From an uncultured Chitinophagaceae bacterium (lineage in GTDB: Bacteria; Bacteroidota; Bacteroidia; Chitinophagales; Chitinophagaceae), in assembly GCA_903881425.1 (NCBI GenBank), contig CAIRTF010000039.1, positions 1-58,628 on the forward strand: DNA of 58,628 bases, written 5' to 3'. This document shows positions 44,514 through 52,546 of this stretch, one piece after another (the stretch's first letter is position 1; the number at the start of each line of letters is the position of its first letter). The position numbers and the translations under genes were made by a program. The notes beneath the pieces were generated by a model, which had not been told where the DNA came from, did no database searches, and worked only from the letters and a program-made list of their open reading frames with translations.

Positions 44514-45821
44514 TCAAATCAAATAACCAAACAGATTATCATCTTTATTTATCTCCGAATAATCGATACTATATGTATTCATTCTGCTGATCAAATGCTC
44601 ATAATCTTTTTTACTCTGTAATTCAATGCCCACCAATGCAGGTCCTGTTTCTTTATTTGTTTTTTGCATGTATTCAAAACGAGTGATGTCATCAGTTGGT
44701 CCGAGTACATGATTTAAAAACTCTCTAAGTACGCCGGGTCTTTGTGCAAAGCGAACCAAAAAATAATGTTTCAATCCTTCATATTGTAAACTCCGCTCTT
44801 TTATTTCAGGCATTCTGTCTATATCATTATTACTTCCACTAACAACACAAACAATGGTTTTATGTTTAATTACTTCAGCGTAATCATCTAAACAGGCAAT
44901 GCTTAATGCACCGGCAGGTTCAACAACAATGGCATCTTCATTGTATAATTTTAAAATAGTAGAACAAATTTTTCCTTCAGCAACTAAATGCAGATCATTC
45001 AATACTTCTTTACAGATTGTATAAGTTAATTCTCCCGTTCGTTTCACTGCAGCACCATCAACGAAACGATCTATCTTATTTAATGTAACTGGATGACCTT
45101 GTTTAAAAGCTTCAAACATAGAAGGAGCACCTTCAGGTTCTAAGCCAATGACTTTTGTATTTGGTGAGAAAGTTTTAAAATAAGTTCCAACACCTGATGC
45201 CAATCCGCCACCACCTACCGGAACAAATACATAATCTATGTCTGATAATTCATTCGCAATTTCAACAGCAACCGTTCCTTGCCCTTCAATAATTCTGTAA
45301 TCATCAAATGGCGGAATGAATACCATATTATTTTGCAATGTGTATTCTTTTGCAGCTATAGCACAATCATCAAACGTGTCGCCAATCAAAATAATTTCTA
45401 TATTATCTTCTCCGAACATTTTTGTCTGACTAACTTTTTGTTTAGGCGTAATGCTTGGCATGAATACCACACCTTTTACTTTTAGTTTATTACAGCTGTA
45501 AGCAAAACCTTGTGCATGATTACCTGCACTAGCACAAACAACACCGCGTTGTAATTGATCGGCTGGCAAACTACTCATCATGTTATAAGCACCGCGTAAT
45601 TTGTATGATCTAACCACTTGCAGATCTTCTCTCTTCAAATAAATTTTACAATTATATTTTTTTGAAAGATGATGATTGAGTTGCAAAGGAGTTTTATGAA
45701 CAATTTTTTTTAATCGTTCTGCTGCAGCTGCAAAATCTAAATGATACCCCCCCGCCTCTAAAGGGGTGCTGATCACATTTTCTGCTGATGTTTTAATATT
45801 TACTTTATCAGTAATAGACAT
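44514..45821 (-). CDS. ilvA: Threonine ammonia-lyase (biosynthetic)
   Basis: IlvA deaminates threonine to 2-oxobutyrate, the entry to isoleucine. The 435-residue protein has the PLP lysine in YKLRGAYNM, the SAGNHAQGFAY loop, VPVGGGGLASG, and a single C-terminal ACT-like domain (LVRFAQRPGVLREFLNHVLGP) for feedback control. The first 26 residues are unusual: they include STPLEAGG, encoded by a palindromic repeat arm, ahead of the normal family start YHLDFAAAAERLKK. It is the fifth gene of ilvD-B-N-C-A. Confidence 0.95.
   Translation of the reverse strand: MSITDKVNIKTSAENVISTPLEAGGYHLDFAAAAERLKKIVHKTPLQLNHHLSKKYNCKIYLKREDLQVVRSYKLRGAYNMMSSLPADQLQRGVVCASAGNHAQGFAYSCNKLKVKGVVFMPSITPKQKVSQTKMFGEDNIEIILIGDTFDDCAIAAKEYTLQNNMVFIPPFDDYRIIEGQGTVAVEIANELSDIDYVFVPVGGGGLASGVGTYFKTFSPNTKVIGLEPEGAPSMFEAFKQGHPVTLNKIDRFVDGAAVKRTGELTYTICKEVLNDLHLVAEGKICSTILKLYNEDAIVVEPAGALSIACLDDYAEVIKHKTIVCVVSGSNNDIDRMPEIKERSLQYEGLKHYFLVRFAQRPGVLREFLNHVLGPTDDITRFEYMQKTNKETGPALVGIELQSKKDYEHLISRMNTYSIDYSEINKDDNLFGYLI
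45744..45771 (-). repeat. C4-TAAA-G4 repeat, arm in ilvA N-terminus
   Basis: On the - strand: AGCACCCCTTTAGAGGC followed by seven G and TAT. It is inside the ilvA reading frame, giving STPLEAGG. Its partner is 45843-45868. Confidence 0.88.
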
Positions 45822-45842: not shown

Positions 45843-45868
45843 TTTCCCCTTTAGGGGTTAGGGTTTAT
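45843..45868 (-). repeat. C4-TAAA-G4 repeat, arm at ilvC stop
   Basis: On the - strand: TAAACCCTAACCCC followed by TAAAGGGGAAA. The first TAA is the ilvC stop codon. Inverted relative to 45744-45771; the ilvA ATG lies between. Confidence 0.88.
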
Positions 45869-46941
45869 TCAACTCCTGTTGTTTCTGATGCCGGTACTTG
45901 ATTCTCAGGTCTTAAACTTCTAACAGTTTTTCCTGCCTGCCACATTTCGCTATCGCGTAATTCTTTTAATTCTACTTCTAATTTTTCGCGATAATCCGGT
46001 TGAGAATTTAAATCGATAGAACGTTGCGATTCTTTACCGGTAGCAACACTGGTATATAAATCATTGAATACGGGTAAAGTTGCATCACGAAATTTTTTCC
46101 ACCAATCCAATGCACCACGTTGTGCTGTTGTTGAGCAATTAGCATACATCCAATCCATTCCATTTTCAGCCACCAATGGCATTAATGATTGTGTTAATTC
46201 TTCCACAGTTTCATTGAATGCTTCACTTGGTGTATGACCTCTTTCACGCAATACTTGATATTGTGCAGCGAAAATTCCCTGAATACATCCCATCAATGTT
46301 CCGCGTTCACCTGTTAAATCACTATATACTTCTTTCTTGAAATTGGTTTCAAATAAATAACCACTCCCTACTGCAATGCCCAATGCAATCACTCTTTCTT
46401 TTGCTTTGCCTGTTGCATCCTGAAAGATTGCGTAACTGCTATTCAATCCTCTGCCTTGTAAAAACATTCTTCTTAAAGAAGTACCGGAGCCTTTTGGTGC
46501 CACTAAGAAAACATCTACATCTTTTGGTGGTACAATACCAGTTTGTTCATTGAACGTGATACCGAAACCATGAGAAAAATATAATGCTTTGCCTGTAGTT
46601 AAATGTTTTTGTACAGTTGGCCATAATGCAATTTGTGCAGCATCGCTTAATAAATAACAAATGATGGTGCCACGTTGCAATGCTTCTTCAATTTCAAATA
46701 AAGTTTCGCCCGGAACAAAACCATCTCGAATGGCTTTATCCCATGTTTTTGAATTCTTTCTCTGACCAACAATTACATTAATACCATTATCTCTTTGATT
46801 CAGTGCTTGTCCGGGTCCTTGTACACCATATCCAATTACTGCCACTGTTTCATTTTTTAAAACTTCCTGAGCTTTTGCTAAAGGGAATTCTTCACGTGTA
46901 ACAACGTTTTCTTCAACGCCGCCGAAATTTAATTTTGCCAT
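45865..46941 (-). CDS. ilvC: Ketol-acid reductoisomerase
   Basis: IlvC rearranges and reduces acetolactate or acetohydroxybutyrate with NADPH. The 358-residue protein is the short (class I) form with the Rossmann motif VIGYGVQGPGQALN and the cofactor-loop RKNSKTW, and the helical domain with EVYSDLTGERGTLMG carrying metal ligands. The usual GSQGHAHAL is GVQGPGQAL here, a sequence variant near the cofactor phosphates. Its stop codon is contained in a repeat arm. Confidence 0.95.
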   Translation of the reverse strand: MAKLNFGGVEENVVTREEFPLAKAQEVLKNETVAVIGYGVQGPGQALNQRDNGINVIVGQRKNSKTWDKAIRDGFVPGETLFEIEEALQRGTIICYLLSDAAQIALWPTVQKHLTTGKALYFSHGFGITFNEQTGIVPPKDVDVFLVAPKGSGTSLRRMFLQGRGLNSSYAIFQDATGKAKERVIALGIAVGSGYLFETNFKKEVYSDLTGERGTLMGCIQGIFAAQYQVLRERGHTPSEAFNETVEELTQSLMPLVAENGMDWMYANCSTTAQRGALDWWKKFRDATLPVFNDLYTSVATGKESQRSIDLNSQPDYREKLEVELKELRDSEMWQAGKTVRSLRPENQVPASETTGVE

Positions 46942-46982: not shown

Positions 46983-47573
46983 TTACATGGTAAATACTTC
47001 TTCCTGTTTATCTAAAAATTCATTTTCTATTAATTCTTCGCCCGGTTCTTTTTGTTCAAACTCTTTTAATTTTTCGTGAAAACCATTGCTGGCTTTAATG
47101 ATGGCCACTCTGGCACTGCGTACAAATTCTATTAATCCATAAGGTTCTAATGCTTTGATCAAACCTTCTGTTTCTTCTCTGTGTCCGGTTGTTTCGAATA
47201 TGGTATAATCTTTTCTGATCACTACAGCTCTGGCACCATGTTGATGTAACAATCTTTCTACCTTCACTTTTTCTGCAATGATATCAGTAGGTACTTTATA
47301 CAATGCCATCTCTTGCCAAATAATTTCTTCATTGGTATTGTAATAAGCTTTTAATACTTCTACTTGCTTTTCTATTTGGCGACATAATTTTCTGACTACA
47401 TCTTCTGTTTCATTGATGACAATGGTAAAACGATGAATGCTTTCTGATTCTGAAGGAGAAACATTTAAGCTTTCGATATTAATTTTTCTTCTGGAAAAAA
47501 TAATAGCAATACGATTTAATAAACCCACTTGGTTTTCAGTATAAACAGTTATGGTATATTCTTGCTTGTTCAT
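46983..47573 (-). CDS. ilvN: Acetolactate synthase small (regulatory) subunit
   Basis: The small subunit activates IlvB and confers valine feedback. The 196-residue protein has an N-terminal ACT domain (YTITVYTENQVGLLNRIAIIFSRRKINIESLNVSPSE) and a second half with the typical ALYKVPTD and EVTGHREETEGLIKALEPYGLIEFVRSARVAI-type region. It lies 12 bases after ilvB. It ends with an acidic tail (EELIENEFLDKQEEVF) not usual in the short forms. Confidence 0.95.
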   Translation of the reverse strand: MNKQEYTITVYTENQVGLLNRIAIIFSRRKINIESLNVSPSESESIHRFTIVINETEDVVRKLCRQIEKQVEVLKAYYNTNEEIIWQEMALYKVPTDIIAEKVKVERLLHQHGARAVVIRKDYTIFETTGHREETEGLIKALEPYGLIEFVRSARVAIIKASNGFHEKLKEFEQKEPGEELIENEFLDKQEEVFTM

Positions 47574-47585
47574 AAATTATTTGTT

Positions 47586-49346
47586 TTAGCTTAAACGAAT
47601 TTCACTTACGCTGCATCCTTGCGGCACCATCGGAAATACATTATTTTCTTTTCCTACCATTACTTCTAATAAATAAGAACCTTTATGCTGTAACATTTTA
47701 TTGACTGCATCTTTTAATTCTTCACGCTTTGAAATCCTTTGCCCGTCTATATAATAGCCTTTGGCGACTTGTACAAAATCCGGACTGGTTATATCAACAA
47801 AAGAATATCTTCTGTCGTTAAATAATTCCTGCCACTGACGAACCATTCCTAAGAATTCATTATTCAGAATCAAAATCTTAATATCAATTTTACTTTGCAT
47901 CACCGTTCCTAATTCTTGTAATGTCATTTGAAAACCACCATCACCAATGACTGCTACCACTGTTCTTTCTTGCGCACCGAATTTTGCACCAATGGCAGCA
48001 GGCAATGCAAATCCCATTGTTCCCAATCCGCCGGAAGTAATATTGCTTCTTGATTGATTATATTTCGCATAACGGCAAGTCACCATTTGATGCTGACCAA
48101 CATCGGTAACAATAATGGCATCACCATTGGTTAATTCATTCACAGTTTTAATCACTTCACCCATTGTGAGAATATCAGTCGATGGATTTAATTCTTCATG
48201 AATTACCGCATCAATTTCTTTTTGTGTGAACTCATTGAATTTATTCAACCATTCTTTATGTTCTTTTTGTTCAATTAATTCAGTTAATAAGGGCAATGTT
48301 TCTTTGCAATCACCCCAAACAGGAACAGTTGTCTTTACATTTTTATCAATCTCTGAAGGATCAATATCTAAGTGAACAATCTTTGCTTGCTTCGCATATT
48401 TATCTAATCTACCTGTAACACGATCATCGAAACGCATACCGATTGCAATCAATACATCGCATTCATTGGTTAACACATTGGGTCCGTAATTTCCATGCAT
48501 ACCCAACATGCCAACTGCTAATGGATGATCTGTTGCAATGGCACTCATGCCTAAAATGGTCCATGCAGCAGGTAATCCACCTTTTTCTATAAATTTTTTG
48601 AATTCTTTTTCTGCTTTACCAAGTATTACACCCTGACCAAAAATGACAAAAGGTTTTTTTGCTTCGTTAATCAATTTTGCTGCTTCAACTATATATTCTT
48701 TTCGAACAATTGGTTTAGGACGATAACTTCTGATATGTTCGCACTTGGTATATCCTGCGTAATCAAATTTTTGAATTTGTGCATTTTTGGTAATATCAAT
48801 TAATACTGGTCCGGGTCTTCCGGTCTTGGCAATATAAAATGCTTTTGCCAATACATGCGGAATTTCATTTGCATCTGTTATTTGATAGTTCCATTTAGTT
48901 ACAGGTGTGGTAATATTGATCACATCTGTTTCCTGAAATGCATCTGTTCCCAATAAATGCGCAAACACTTGTCCGGTTATACAAACTAAAGGAGTGGAGT
49001 CGATCATCGCATCTGCTAAACCGGTAACCAAGTTAGTTGCACCGGGTCCACTGGTGGCGAATACAACACCTACTTTACCACTGCTTCTTGCAAAGCCTTG
49101 TGCAGCATGGATGGCGCCTTGTTCGTGACGAACGAGAATATGATTTAATTCATTTTGATAATCATACAATGCATCATAAATGGGCATGATGGCACCACCC
49201 GGATAACCGAAAATGGTTTGTACATTTTCAGCGATCATTGCTTTTAATACGGCTTCGCTGCCTGAAATATTACTCCCTACTCCTAAAGGGGAGTTTGCCA
49301 CTTCTGTTGTTTTGAGGATTTCCATTGTTGATATTTCTGTACCCAT
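47586..49346 (-). CDS. ilvB: Acetolactate synthase large (catalytic) subunit
   Basis: This TPP enzyme makes acetolactate and 2-aceto-2-hydroxybutyrate. The 586-residue protein has the catalytic glutamate in LVRHEQGAIHAAQGFAR (Glu75), the PGPGATNLVTGLADA-type motif and the TPP-binding GDGGFQMTLQELGT. The normal family start is around SGSEAVLKAMIAEN; the preceding 26 residues include NSPLGVG from a repeat arm. Second gene of the operon after ilvD. Confidence 0.96.
   Translation of the reverse strand: MGTEISTMEILKTTEVANSPLGVGSNISGSEAVLKAMIAENVQTIFGYPGGAIMPIYDALYDYQNELNHILVRHEQGAIHAAQGFARSSGKVGVVFATSGPGATNLVTGLADAMIDSTPLVCITGQVFAHLLGTDAFQETDVINITTPVTKWNYQITDANEIPHVLAKAFYIAKTGRPGPVLIDITKNAQIQKFDYAGYTKCEHIRSYRPKPIVRKEYIVEAAKLINEAKKPFVIFGQGVILGKAEKEFKKFIEKGGLPAAWTILGMSAIATDHPLAVGMLGMHGNYGPNVLTNECDVLIAIGMRFDDRVTGRLDKYAKQAKIVHLDIDPSEIDKNVKTTVPVWGDCKETLPLLTELIEQKEHKEWLNKFNEFTQKEIDAVIHEELNPSTDILTMGEVIKTVNELTNGDAIIVTDVGQHQMVTCRYAKYNQSRSNITSGGLGTMGFALPAAIGAKFGAQERTVVAVIGDGGFQMTLQELGTVMQSKIDIKILILNNEFLGMVRQWQELFNDRRYSFVDITSPDFVQVAKGYYIDGQRISKREELKDAVNKMLQHKGSYLLEVMVGKENNVFPMVPQGCSVSEIRLS
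49271..49296 (-). repeat. C4-TAAA-G4 repeat, arm in ilvB N-terminus
   Basis: On the - strand: AACTCCCCTTTAGGAG followed by TAGGGAGTAA, read in the ilvB frame as NSPLGVGS. Partner at 49379-49406. Confidence 0.88.
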
Positions 49347-49378: not shown

Positions 49379-49406
49379 AACTTCCCCCTTTAGGGGCAAG
49401 GGTTAT
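49379..49406 (-). repeat. C4-TAAA-G4 repeat, arm at ilvD stop
   Basis: On the - strand it starts with the ilvD stop TAA, then CCCTTGCCCC and TAAAGGGGGAAG. Inverted relative to 49271-49296; the ilvB ATG (49346) lies between. Confidence 0.88.
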
Positions 49407-51085
49407 TCATCAGTCACGCAACCCTCTGCTGCAGTCTTTACCAGCTTTGCATATTTATACAATACGCCATTGGTTGCTTTTAAGGCAGGTTGTTTCCATT
49501 TCTTTTTTCTTTCAGCAATGATTGCTTCACTAACTTTTAAAGTGAGCGAATTTTTAGTCGCATCAATTTCAATGATATCATCATCTTCTACCAATGCAAT
49601 TAATCCGCCATCCTGTGCTTCCGGTGTAATATGTCCAACCACAAAACCATGTGTGCCGCCACTGAATCTTCCATCGGTAATTAATGCAACTGATTTGCCC
49701 AAACCCGCACCAATAATGGCTCCTGTGGGTTTCAACATTTCAGGCATGCCCGGTGCACCTTTAGGACCGATGTTTCTAATTACTACCACATCACCTGCAT
49801 GTACTTTGCCTGATTGAATGCCGCTGATTAATTCTTTTTCTCCATCAAATACTCTCGCTGTTCCTTCAAAACGTTCACCTTCTTTGCCGGATATTTTTGC
49901 AACACTTCCGCCGGTTGCGAGATTGCCATATAATATTTGTAAATGACCTGTTGCTTTTAAGGGTTTATCTAAAGGTGCAATGATGTTTTGTTTTTCAAAA
50001 TCCAAATCAGGTGCTGATGCTAAATTTTCTGCTACTGTTTTTCCTGTTACCGTTAAACAATCACCATGCAATAAACCATGCTTTAATAAATATTTCATTA
50101 CAGCAGGCACACCACCATATTTATGCAGATCTTCCATCAAATATTTTCCGCTGGGTTTGAAATCTGCCAACACCGGAATTTTATTACTGATGGTTTGAAA
50201 ATCATCTTGCGTTAATGGAACATTCACACTTTTTGCTATCGCAATCAAATGCAATACAGCATTGGTACTTCCACCCAACACCATAATAACAGTAATTGCA
50301 TTTTCAAATGCTTTACGAGTCATGATGTCCCGGGGCTTGATATCTTTTTCCAATAATAATTTTATCGCTGCGCCTACTGCTGCACATTCTTTTTGTTTGT
50401 CTTCACTCAATGCAGGATTAGAGGAAGAATAAGGTAAACTCATTCCTAATGCTTCAATCGCACTGGCCATGGTATTAGCGGTGTACATGCCGCCGCAGGC
50501 ACCTGCACCCGGGCAACTATTTTTTACAATGCCTTTAAAATCGGCTTCTGATAAATTACCTGCCAACTTTTGTCCTAATGCTTCAAATGCTGAAACAATA
50601 TTTAAATCTTCTCCATGATAATGCCCCGGTGCAATGGTTCCGCCATATAACATAATCGACGGACGATTCAATCTACCCATTGCCATAACAGAACCCGGCA
50701 TATTTTTATCGCAACCGGGAATCGTAATTAATGCATCATAATATTGTGCACCTGCATTGGTTTCAATACTGTCAGCAATTAAATCTCTGCTCACTAAACT
50801 ATAACGCATACCATCAGTACCCATACTAATACCATCGCTTACACCAATTGTGTAAAAACGTAATCCCAGTAAGCCTTCTATGCTATTCACAGATTCTTTC
50901 ACCGTTGTTGCCAGATCATTCAAATGCATATTACATGGGTTACCATCCCAACCCATACTAACAATACCTACTTGTGCTTTATTAAAATCTTCTTCTTTAA
51001 AACCTATTGCATAAAACATGGCTTGTGCACCGGGCTGTGTAACATCCTGTGTTAATGTTTTCGAATATTTGTTTAATTCACTCAT
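49403..51085 (-). CDS. ilvD: Dihydroxy-acid dehydratase
   Basis: IlvD dehydrates the dihydroxy acids of the valine and isoleucine branches using an Fe-S cluster. The 560-residue protein has the cluster cysteines in GNPCNMHL (Cys51), PGCDKNMPG (Cys125) and [17 protein letters not shown] (Cys191/Cys197 region), and the C-terminal domain with [15 protein letters not shown]. It is the first structural gene after the ilv leader peptide and attenuator. Confidence 0.97.
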
Positions 51086-51137: not shown

Positions 51138-51170
51138 CAAAAAACCCGCTTCTTTGAGGAAGCGGGTCTT
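51138..51170 (-). terminator. ilv attenuator terminator
   Basis: On the - strand ACCCGCTTC-CTCAAA-GAAGCGGGT is followed by six T. It lies 20 bases after the leader-peptide stop and about 55 before the ilvD ATG. Its 5' arm CGCTTCCT can instead pair with AGGAAGTG inside the leader peptide frame (51202-51209). Confidence 0.93.
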
Positions 51171-51187
51171 TTATGCTAAGTTATTTG

Positions 51188-51292
51188 TTACATAAAACAT
51201 TCACTTCCTTGTAAAGCAGGAATAATAATGACAATCACAATAATCATTATTGCGTTGATGATATTTGCCTTATTAAACTTGTTCATTAACAT
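51188..51292 (-). CDS. ilvL: Branched-chain amino acid leader peptide
   Basis: A 34-codon frame runs from the ATG at 51292 (or 51286) to TAA at 51188-51190. After MLMNKFNKANIINAIM comes the run IIVIVIII, then PALQGSECFM. It has 9 Ile, 2 Val and 2 Leu. A perfect promoter lies about 16-29 bases upstream and a terminator 20 bases downstream. Ribosome stalling at the Ile/Val codons would leave AGGAAGTG free to block the terminator; reading to the stop would cover it and let the terminator form. This is the textbook arrangement for transcription attenuation. Confidence 0.92.
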   Translation of the reverse strand: MLMNKFNKANIINAIMIIVIVIIIPALQGSECFM

Positions 51293-51307
51293 TGAAGTGT
51301 TGTTGAA

Positions 51308-51338
51308 CAAATATACCTGCCTTATTTTAAAATGCAAA
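51308..51338 (-). promoter_or_regulatory. Promoter of the ilv operon
   Basis: On the - strand TTTG (51335-51338) and TATATTTG (51308-51315) are separated by 19 bases, a perfect match. The start should be near 51301, giving a 10-16 base leader before the leader-peptide ATG. Confidence 0.9.
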
Positions 51339-51403: not shown

Positions 51404-51430
51404 ACACCCCTTTAGGCATGGGGGTTATAT
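51404..51430 (-). repeat. C4-TAAA-G4 repeat, arm at leuB stop
   Basis: On the - strand the arm begins at the leuB stop region (ATATAA), then CCCCCATGCC and TAAAGGGGTGT. Between the arms GAAATTTGA and TCAAATTTC form another stem, so the whole can fold into a long hairpin that may end leu transcription before the ilv promoter. Confidence 0.85.
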
Positions 51431-52546
51431 AATGGTTGATTTTCTCAACTCAATATTTTCTTTATTAATGGTTCCGCTTATTTTTCCGCTTACATAATCA
51501 CTGATGAGTTCACCAATGGTGGAAGTGAAATAAAAATTGATCGGATCAATATCTTTTGTTACAAATCCATTTTGTAAGGTCCAACTTACTGCAGCCCTCA
51601 CCAGCGCTGCTTCTTGCGGTAATCCAATATAATCCAACAGCATGGCTGTTGATAAAATAGAACCAATCGGATTGGCAATATCTTTTCCGGCAGCTTGCGG
51701 ATAAGAACCATGAATAGGTTCAAACAAAGCAGTACAAACACCTACTGATGAAGAAGGCAATAACCCCAATGAACCACTTAATACACTGGCTTCATCACTG
51801 ATAATATCACCAAACATATTTTCTGTTAATACCACATCGAACTGCTTTGGATTCAACATAATTTGCATCGCTGCATTATCAACAAACATATAATCAACAG
51901 CAACATCCGGATATTGCAATGCAATTTCTTTCACTACTTTTCTCCAAAGCCTTGATGTTTCTAACACATTGGCTTTATCAACCAATGTTAATTTTTTTCT
52001 GCGCTCCGGTTTTTGTGCAAACTGAAATGCCAAATGTGTTACCCTTTCAATCTCTTCTCTTGTATAAGAGCATTCATCTAATGCTTTTGTTCCATCATCA
52101 CTTAATTCTTTTTTACCGAAATAAATACCTCCCGTTAATTCGCGGAAAATGATAAAATCAACATCCTCTAATTGTTTTGCTTTAAGCGGAGATAAATGTG
52201 TTAAAGAAGAATAAGTAACAATAGGTCTGATATTGCCATATAACTGTAATGATTTTCTTAATTTAAGCAAACCTTGTTCCGGCCTTACTTTCGCTGTTGG
52301 ATCATTATCATATTTAGGATCGCCGATGGCACCAAATAGAATGGCATCACTTTCCAAACAAACTTCAATGGTTTCATCGGGTAAAGGATTTCCGGTTTGA
52401 TCAATCGCACATGCACCCATCAAACAATAAGTATAATTAAATTCATGACCATATTTTTCTGCCAATGCATTTAATACACGAATTGACTGTGCGGTTACTT
52501 CCGGACCAATGCCATCTCCATTAATGATTGCAATATTTTTTTTCAT
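51425..52546 (-). CDS. leuB: 3-isopropylmalate dehydrogenase
   Basis: LeuB oxidises and decarboxylates 3-isopropylmalate with NAD. The 373-residue protein has the family motifs: GDGIGPEV (10-17), DAILFGAIGDPKYD, the substrate arginines in RPEQGLLKLRKSL and FRELTGGIYFG, the metal/NAD block VLTENMFGDIISDEASVLSGSLGLLPS, and EPIHGSYPQAAGK. It is the last gene of leuA-leuC-leuD-ABC-leuB, 9 bases after the ATPase gene. Confidence 0.97.
   Translation of the reverse strand: MKKNIAIINGDGIGPEVTAQSIRVLNALAEKYGHEFNYTYCLMGACAIDQTGNPLPDETIEVCLESDAILFGAIGDPKYDNDPTAKVRPEQGLLKLRKSLQLYGNIRPIVTYSSLTHLSPLKAKQLEDVDFIIFRELTGGIYFGKKELSDDGTKALDECSYTREEIERVTHLAFQFAQKPERRKKLTLVDKANVLETSRLWRKVVKEIALQYPDVAVDYMFVDNAAMQIMLNPKQFDVVLTENMFGDIISDEASVLSGSLGLLPSSSVGVCTALFEPIHGSYPQAAGKDIANPIGSILSTAMLLDYIGLPQEAALVRAAVSWTLQNGFVTKDIDPINFYFTSTIGELISDYVSGKISGTINKENIELRKSTII

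Follow-up and report, generated by a model that had tools for sequence, protein, structure and literature searches.

In the enterobacterial trp, his, thr, phe, ilvGMEDA and ilvBN leaders, a leader peptide rich in the amino acids that the operon produces carries near its end a segment 2, which pairs either with segment 3 of an antiterminator that excludes the 3:4 terminator hairpin or with a complementary segment 1. In Escherichia coli trpL, segment 1 lies inside the leader ORF, and the ilv leaders of E. coli contain Leu codons as well. Key comparative papers are those of Vitreschak from 2004, which reportedly predicted some cases in Bacteroidetes/Chlorobi, and of Lopatovskaya from 2010. In Flavobacterium psychrophilum, leader-peptide attenuators before amino-acid operons have been proposed from transcriptome data, and the conserved 5' elements described there, among them those of pheA and hisG, have no Rfam hits (PMC9723704); the main text of that report makes no mention of ilv among these leaders. 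The Bacteroid-trp motif (RF01692), whose name points to trp genes, was listed in 2010 as a putative cis-regulatory RNA in Bacteroidota (Weinberg 2010, PMC2864571). Outside the Proteobacteria, the branched-chain amino-acid operon ilvBNC of Corynebacterium glutamicum is described as having an attenuator with three mRNA hairpins (PMC11857589); this bacterium belongs to a different phylum.

Here we describe an element upstream of ilvD in an uncultured Chitinophagaceae bacterium, found in a stretch of 58,628 nucleotides that was analysed as a whole and is called the window in the following. Very probably it acts as a ribosome-mediated transcription attenuator of ilvDBNC-ilvA, with charged tRNA-Ile and tRNA-Val as the signals sensed. 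It has the proposed mechanism and the phylum in common with the leaders of F. psychrophilum (PMC9723704), and like Bacteroid-trp (PMC2864571) it is a putative cis-regulatory RNA of Bacteroidota. With the enterobacterial leaders it shares the whole arrangement outlined above, but there is no significant sequence relation to them, its promoter is of the Bacteroidota type, its regulatory codons are for Ile and Val only, and its segment 1 is not part of the ORF but belongs to a short 5'UTR, at the start codon, which is possibly a variant of the classical layout. The first-pass annotation, made from the letters of the window alone, had presented such a switch as a proteobacterial device, but this overstates the surprise, since leader attenuation had been inferred in flavobacteria (PMC9723704), Bacteroid-trp had been listed in 2010 (PMC2864571), and His, Trp, Thr and Ile/Val leaders were seen by us in several Bacteroidota families. 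As ribosome-mediated attenuation has earlier been proposed in Bacteroidota, the ilv element would be a further, well-supported case that has no Rfam family.

On the minus strand the order is leuB, promoter, leader, terminator, ilvD, ilvB, ilvN, ilvC and ilvA (Table 1). Re-reading of this strand showed that all coordinates and pairings given in the first-pass annotation are correct, including the promoter, the 34-codon leader with its IIVIVIII run, the strong terminator with a 9-bp stem and six T that starts 20 nt downstream of the leader stop, and an antiterminator segment within the leader that pairs with the terminator 5' arm. Its statement that every part of the classical switch is visible holds for the parts that it named, all of which are present, whereas segment 1 and a second antiterminator helix had been missed. 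The attenuator RNA is considerably more stable than expected, with −46 kcal/mol compared to −28.6 kcal/mol in shuffled sequences (z = −4.9; 0/200 shuffles equally stable).

Table 1. Features of the proposed ilv attenuator region, the adjacent genes and the thrA leader (positions in the window)
Feature	Position	Strand	Remarks
leuB	51425..52546	-	upstream of the attenuator, same strand; TIGR00169, 433 bits
Bacteroidota-type promoter TTTG-N19-TATATTTG	51308..51338	-	TTTG 51338-51335, 19 nt, TATATTTG 51315-51308
Segment 1, CACTTC in the ~10-nt 5'UTR	51294..51299	-	pairs with GAAGTG 51207-51202
Leader ORF, 34 codons, MLMNKFNKANIINAIMIIVIVIIIPALQGSECFM	51188..51292	-	ATG 51292 to TAA 51188; conserved leader
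Putative regulatory codons, IIVIVIII	51221..51244	-	ATT ATT GTG ATT GTC ATT ATT ATT
Segment 2, AGGAAGTG, in the last third of the leader ORF	51202..51209	-	pairs with segment 1 or 3
Second antiterminator helix, 5' side	51190..51197	-	leader tail and first base of the stop
Second antiterminator helix, 3' side	51169..51176	-	spacer
Segment 3, CGCTTCCT, 3' side of the antiterminator	51157..51164	-	overlaps the terminator 5' arm
Intrinsic terminator hairpin (segments 3:4), 9 bp	51144..51167	-	A51167-C51159 with G51152-T51144, loop of 6
Terminator U tract	51139..51144	-	six T from 51144
ilvD, first gene under the proposed control	49403..51085	-	TIGR00110, 735 bits, above cut-off
ilvB	47586..49346	-	TIGR00118, 709 bits, above cut-off
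ilvN	46983..47573	-	NF008864, 113 bits, slightly below the cut-off of 119
ilvC	45865..46941	-	TIGR00465, 317 bits, above cut-off
ilvA	44514..45821	-	TIGR02079, 656 bits, above cut-off
Thr/Ile-rich leader ORF MAKNTNISSFNSAITALFTAITITTTITTL	32996-32904	-	upstream of thrA-thrB-thrC (32813-28081)

A search with IlvD led to 30 loci. In nine of them, including that of the window, the region upstream of ilvD is built alike: an Ile/Val run is followed by Gly codons and a stop, and the 5' arm of the terminator behind it contains CCGCCTCC or CTTCC. A covariance model built from eight of them (L008 was left out; L007 and L008 are misaligned in MAFFT) matched 187 of 299 genomes of the family at E ≤ 0.01, of which a few of the weakest matches may be due to chance. 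The window itself is matched with E = 2.8e-18, a score that is partly given by construction as the model includes the window. The closest relatives, as far as their records carry organism names, belong to the Chitinophagaceae, namely Segetibacter, Niastella, Longitalea, Sediminibacterium, Flavihumibacter and Chitinophaga. Among 99 distinct homologues the genes downstream are ilvE-ilvD in 63 and ilvD in 35 cases and leuB is located upstream in 95, so that the attenuator is found in front of the ilv genes irrespective of whether they begin with ilvE. One well-matching copy (L065, G006:C1:2564500-2568400) is remote from the ilv genes; it is followed on its strand by a gene for an uncharacterised protein and has a recombinase-like gene in its vicinity. 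The element is dispensable, since in a close relative (G026, locus L002), whose ilvD is 90% identical, ilvD comes immediately after leuB with neither promoter nor attenuator in between; the attenuator is present in G217 of the same genus. The promoter is conserved as well: the strict pattern TTTG-N18-21-TAnnTTYG occurs upstream of the leader in 54 of the 99 homologues, compared to 0.5% of shuffled sequences. Transcription can be assumed to start near 51302.

According to the proposed mechanism, the transcript would begin about 10 nt before the leader ATG and the leader would be translated. When Ile and Val are plentiful, the ribosome would reach the stop codon with segment 2 (AGGAAGTG) covered, and the 3:4 hairpin would, as it emerges, stop transcription in vivo about 50 nt before ilvD. 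When Ile or Val is scarce, the ribosome would stall within the Ile/Val run and leave segment 2, which starts about 11 nt past the last Ile codon, free to pair with segment 3, and the leader tail would add a second helix to this pairing. The terminator would then be blocked and RNA polymerase would enter ilvD; read-through upon shortage is thus the presumed direction of the response. Without a loaded ribosome, segment 2 could form a duplex with the 5'-terminal segment 1, which would favour termination. Constrained folding of 96 sequences, in which the RNA was cut before segment 4 and a ribosome footprint of assumed size was blocked, gave a mean antiterminator probability of 0.75 with the ribosome in the run and of 0.003 with the ribosome at the stop. 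This bears out the expectation of the first-pass annotation that a ribosome at the stop would mask the antiterminator segment.

The pairings themselves are conserved among the homologues. In the terminator of 99 sequences, seven of nine pairs are changed on both sides, 93.7% of all cells are paired, and the covariation score is 0.153 compared to 0.059 in shuffled alignments; pairing is far poorer when slid versions are compared. The antiterminator of the window, AGGAAGTG (51209-51202) with CGCTTCCT (51164-51157), consists of 8 bp including one G-U, and its inner helix is paired in 97% of cells. Changes on both sides are few here because the segment is nearly invariant. They comprise G-C to A-U in the window and one other genus and G-C to U-A in L126, and pairing is kept in all of them (GGAAG/CTTCC in the window, GGAAGTGG/CCACTTCC in the other genus, TGAGGTGG/CCGCCTCA in L126). 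Since the terminator 3' arm is likewise changed in the window and in L129, three segments have shifted together. The second helix, between leader tail and spacer, is supported by a coupling of z = −5.4 across 92 homologues. A pairing of the GTGGTGGTC codons with the terminator 5' arm was also considered and dropped, as the matching GAC is lost in relatives. The first-pass annotation had proposed to look in relatives for compensatory changes, which are strong in the terminator and a few in number in the antiterminator, and for conserved Ile/Val codons, which are kept in nearly all of the 99 leaders. Codons, terminator covariation, antiterminator compensation, promoter and operon linkage all lend comparative support, as constraints acting on RNA or codons, to its reading as an Ile/Val attenuator. 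A leader run that matches the operon, a terminator, an antiterminator excluding it, a geometry suited for masking and a segment 1:2 pairing are found together in the predicted element.

Segment 1 became apparent when the leader was folded alone, as segment 2 then pairs near −90, directly before the leader ATG. With the 5'UTR of about 10 nt that follows from the promoter position, segment 1 would practically coincide with the 5' terminus of the RNA. Relatives have the corresponding pairs CCTTC-ATG/CATGGAGG, CTCCTTC/GGAGGAG, CAACCT/AGGTTG and AATTACATTTC/GAGGTGTAATT. When the pairing energy within one sequence was compared to that of swapped partners, the true partners were clearly better in 96 sequences (z = −10.1) and also in 18 sequences that are less than 60% identical (z = −6.2, 0/5000 permutations). 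No comparable coupling to segment 2 was detected in control windows, including the remaining 5'UTR and the stretch immediately preceding segment 2. A local segment 1, ATT-CCT just before segment 2, was rejected, since it is no better than swapped pairs (z = +3.6 for all sequences, +1.4 for representatives). In most relatives the switch is made of GGAGG/CCUCC, the Shine-Dalgarno core and its complement, which would be tolerable as the ribosomes of Bacteroidia are described as ignoring Shine-Dalgarno sequences (PMC9976891).

What segment 1 might do is a matter of two readings. Tentatively, and from the pairing pattern, the 5' end at the leader start codon could serve as segment 1 in a layout variant that closes the whole ORF in a loop and thereby protects the terminator and gates ribosome loading. 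At equilibrium, the ribosome-free RNA favours the antiterminator with a probability of 0.72, so that such a role needs kinetic trapping, i.e., segment 1 would have to pair first. As a refinement of the attenuator model, it is conceivable, though less likely than not, that segment 1 instead mainly closes the leader start codon after segment 2 has been made and limits later ribosomes without protecting the terminator. In favour of this, the duplex takes in the ATG in many relatives (CCTTC-AT with AT-GGAGG), but in the window the six paired bases sit just before the ATG and leave it out.

The attenuator reading as a whole also had to be weighed against other ways of control. Bacteroidota possess other 5' regulators, and a protein-dependent control would be compatible with the sequence, so that the leader could be read out by Rho- or translation-coupled control or by binding of a regulatory protein or small molecule. 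However, the strong intrinsic terminator with its U tract, the simple three-way pairing scheme and the Ile/Val codons that match the products of the operon make this very unlikely, and at gathering score Rfam finds only tRNAs in the window and no T-box or riboswitch family. At a low threshold there is weak resemblance to Thr, Phe and Trp leaders, all below cut-off, the best match being Thr_leader (RF00506) with 27.9 bits compared to a gathering score of 55; Bacteroid-trp (RF01692) matches neither the ilv element nor the trpE leader locus of the same genome.

The leader itself is kept with about 30-37 codons in the 99 homologues, in nearly all of which an Ile/Val run, consisting almost exclusively of these two residues, is followed by P-A-x-x-G-G and then the terminator. 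Codon use was counted in leaders aligned on the Gly-Gly motif and compared to that of the downstream genes. Of the two Gly codons, which contribute to the antiterminator, the first reads GGA in 95 of 98 leaders (24% in genes) and the second GGT in 79 of 98 (37%). Pro is encoded by CCT in 67 of 74 (29%), Ile at −6 by ATT in 91 of 92, and Val at −8 by GTC in 48 of 87 (7.5%). Such fixation at degenerate positions indicates selection at the RNA level, although the Val bias may instead reflect which tRNA is sensed. Within the run, the differences at codon positions 1, 2 and 3 (58/25/114) show an excess at the third position. Outside the run, there is no synonymous excess (371 nonsynonymous and 113 synonymous codons), and the evidence for coding is therefore weak there. 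Although the ORF is conserved and IIVIVIII-PAL is hydrophobic enough for a short transmembrane segment, it is highly improbable that the leader is a functional membrane micropeptide and that the terminator only closes its small mRNA or the mRNA of the leu operon. The run is almost purely I and V instead of also containing L, F and A; where RNA pairing depends on particular codons, these are fixed down to the nucleotide; couplings exist between segment 2 and the 5'UTR and between leader tail and spacer; and the element precedes the ilv genes regardless of which of ilvE and ilvD comes first.

Besides the ilv attenuator, the same genome contains a His leader, MKQMQHIHHHFLPNG, with a terminator upstream of hisG (L159, G000:C143), where GTAAGC at the leader end can pair with GCTTAC of the terminator 5' arm, and a Trp leader, MKNLLNNNWWWHTNLSRGL, with a terminator upstream of trpE (L164, G000:C143), where TCGGGG can likewise pair with CCCCGA. 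Behind the leader of thrA in the window (Table 1), neither visual inspection nor a scan revealed a clear intrinsic terminator, so that the mode of action of this leader may differ from that of the ilv element. leuA in the window has no leader with a terminator. When 396 genomes of a phylum sample were searched with the same covariance model, the matches were weak; they include plausible Ile/Val leaders before ilvE-ilvD (L149, L153, L154) and before an ilvN-like gene (L148), as well as HHHRHHH upstream of hisG (L150), a leader with Thr and Ile upstream of an aspartate kinase gene (L152) and WWW upstream of trpE (L157), the latter three genes being identified from their N-terminal sequences alone. 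Several other weak matches were ordinary terminators on inspection. In Chryseobacterium (L240 and L242), two Ile/Val leader-terminator units are arranged in series before ilvE, at a distance of about 1.1-1.3 kb from ilvD. Since both of them have a possible antiterminator segment, they form a putative tandem attenuator. Leaders for His, Trp, Thr and Ile/Val are hence found across several Bacteroidota families.

The ilv element represents a base-by-base, comparatively supported candidate attenuator for a major biosynthetic operon of Bacteroidota, where such switches have mostly been inferred in passing. As the switch needs a ribosome close behind RNA polymerase, it implies coupling of transcription and translation at these leaders. 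Moreover, one and the same genome carries apparently complete Ile/Val, His and Trp attenuators as well as a leader for Thr, which points to attenuation as a principal means of controlling amino-acid synthesis in this lineage.
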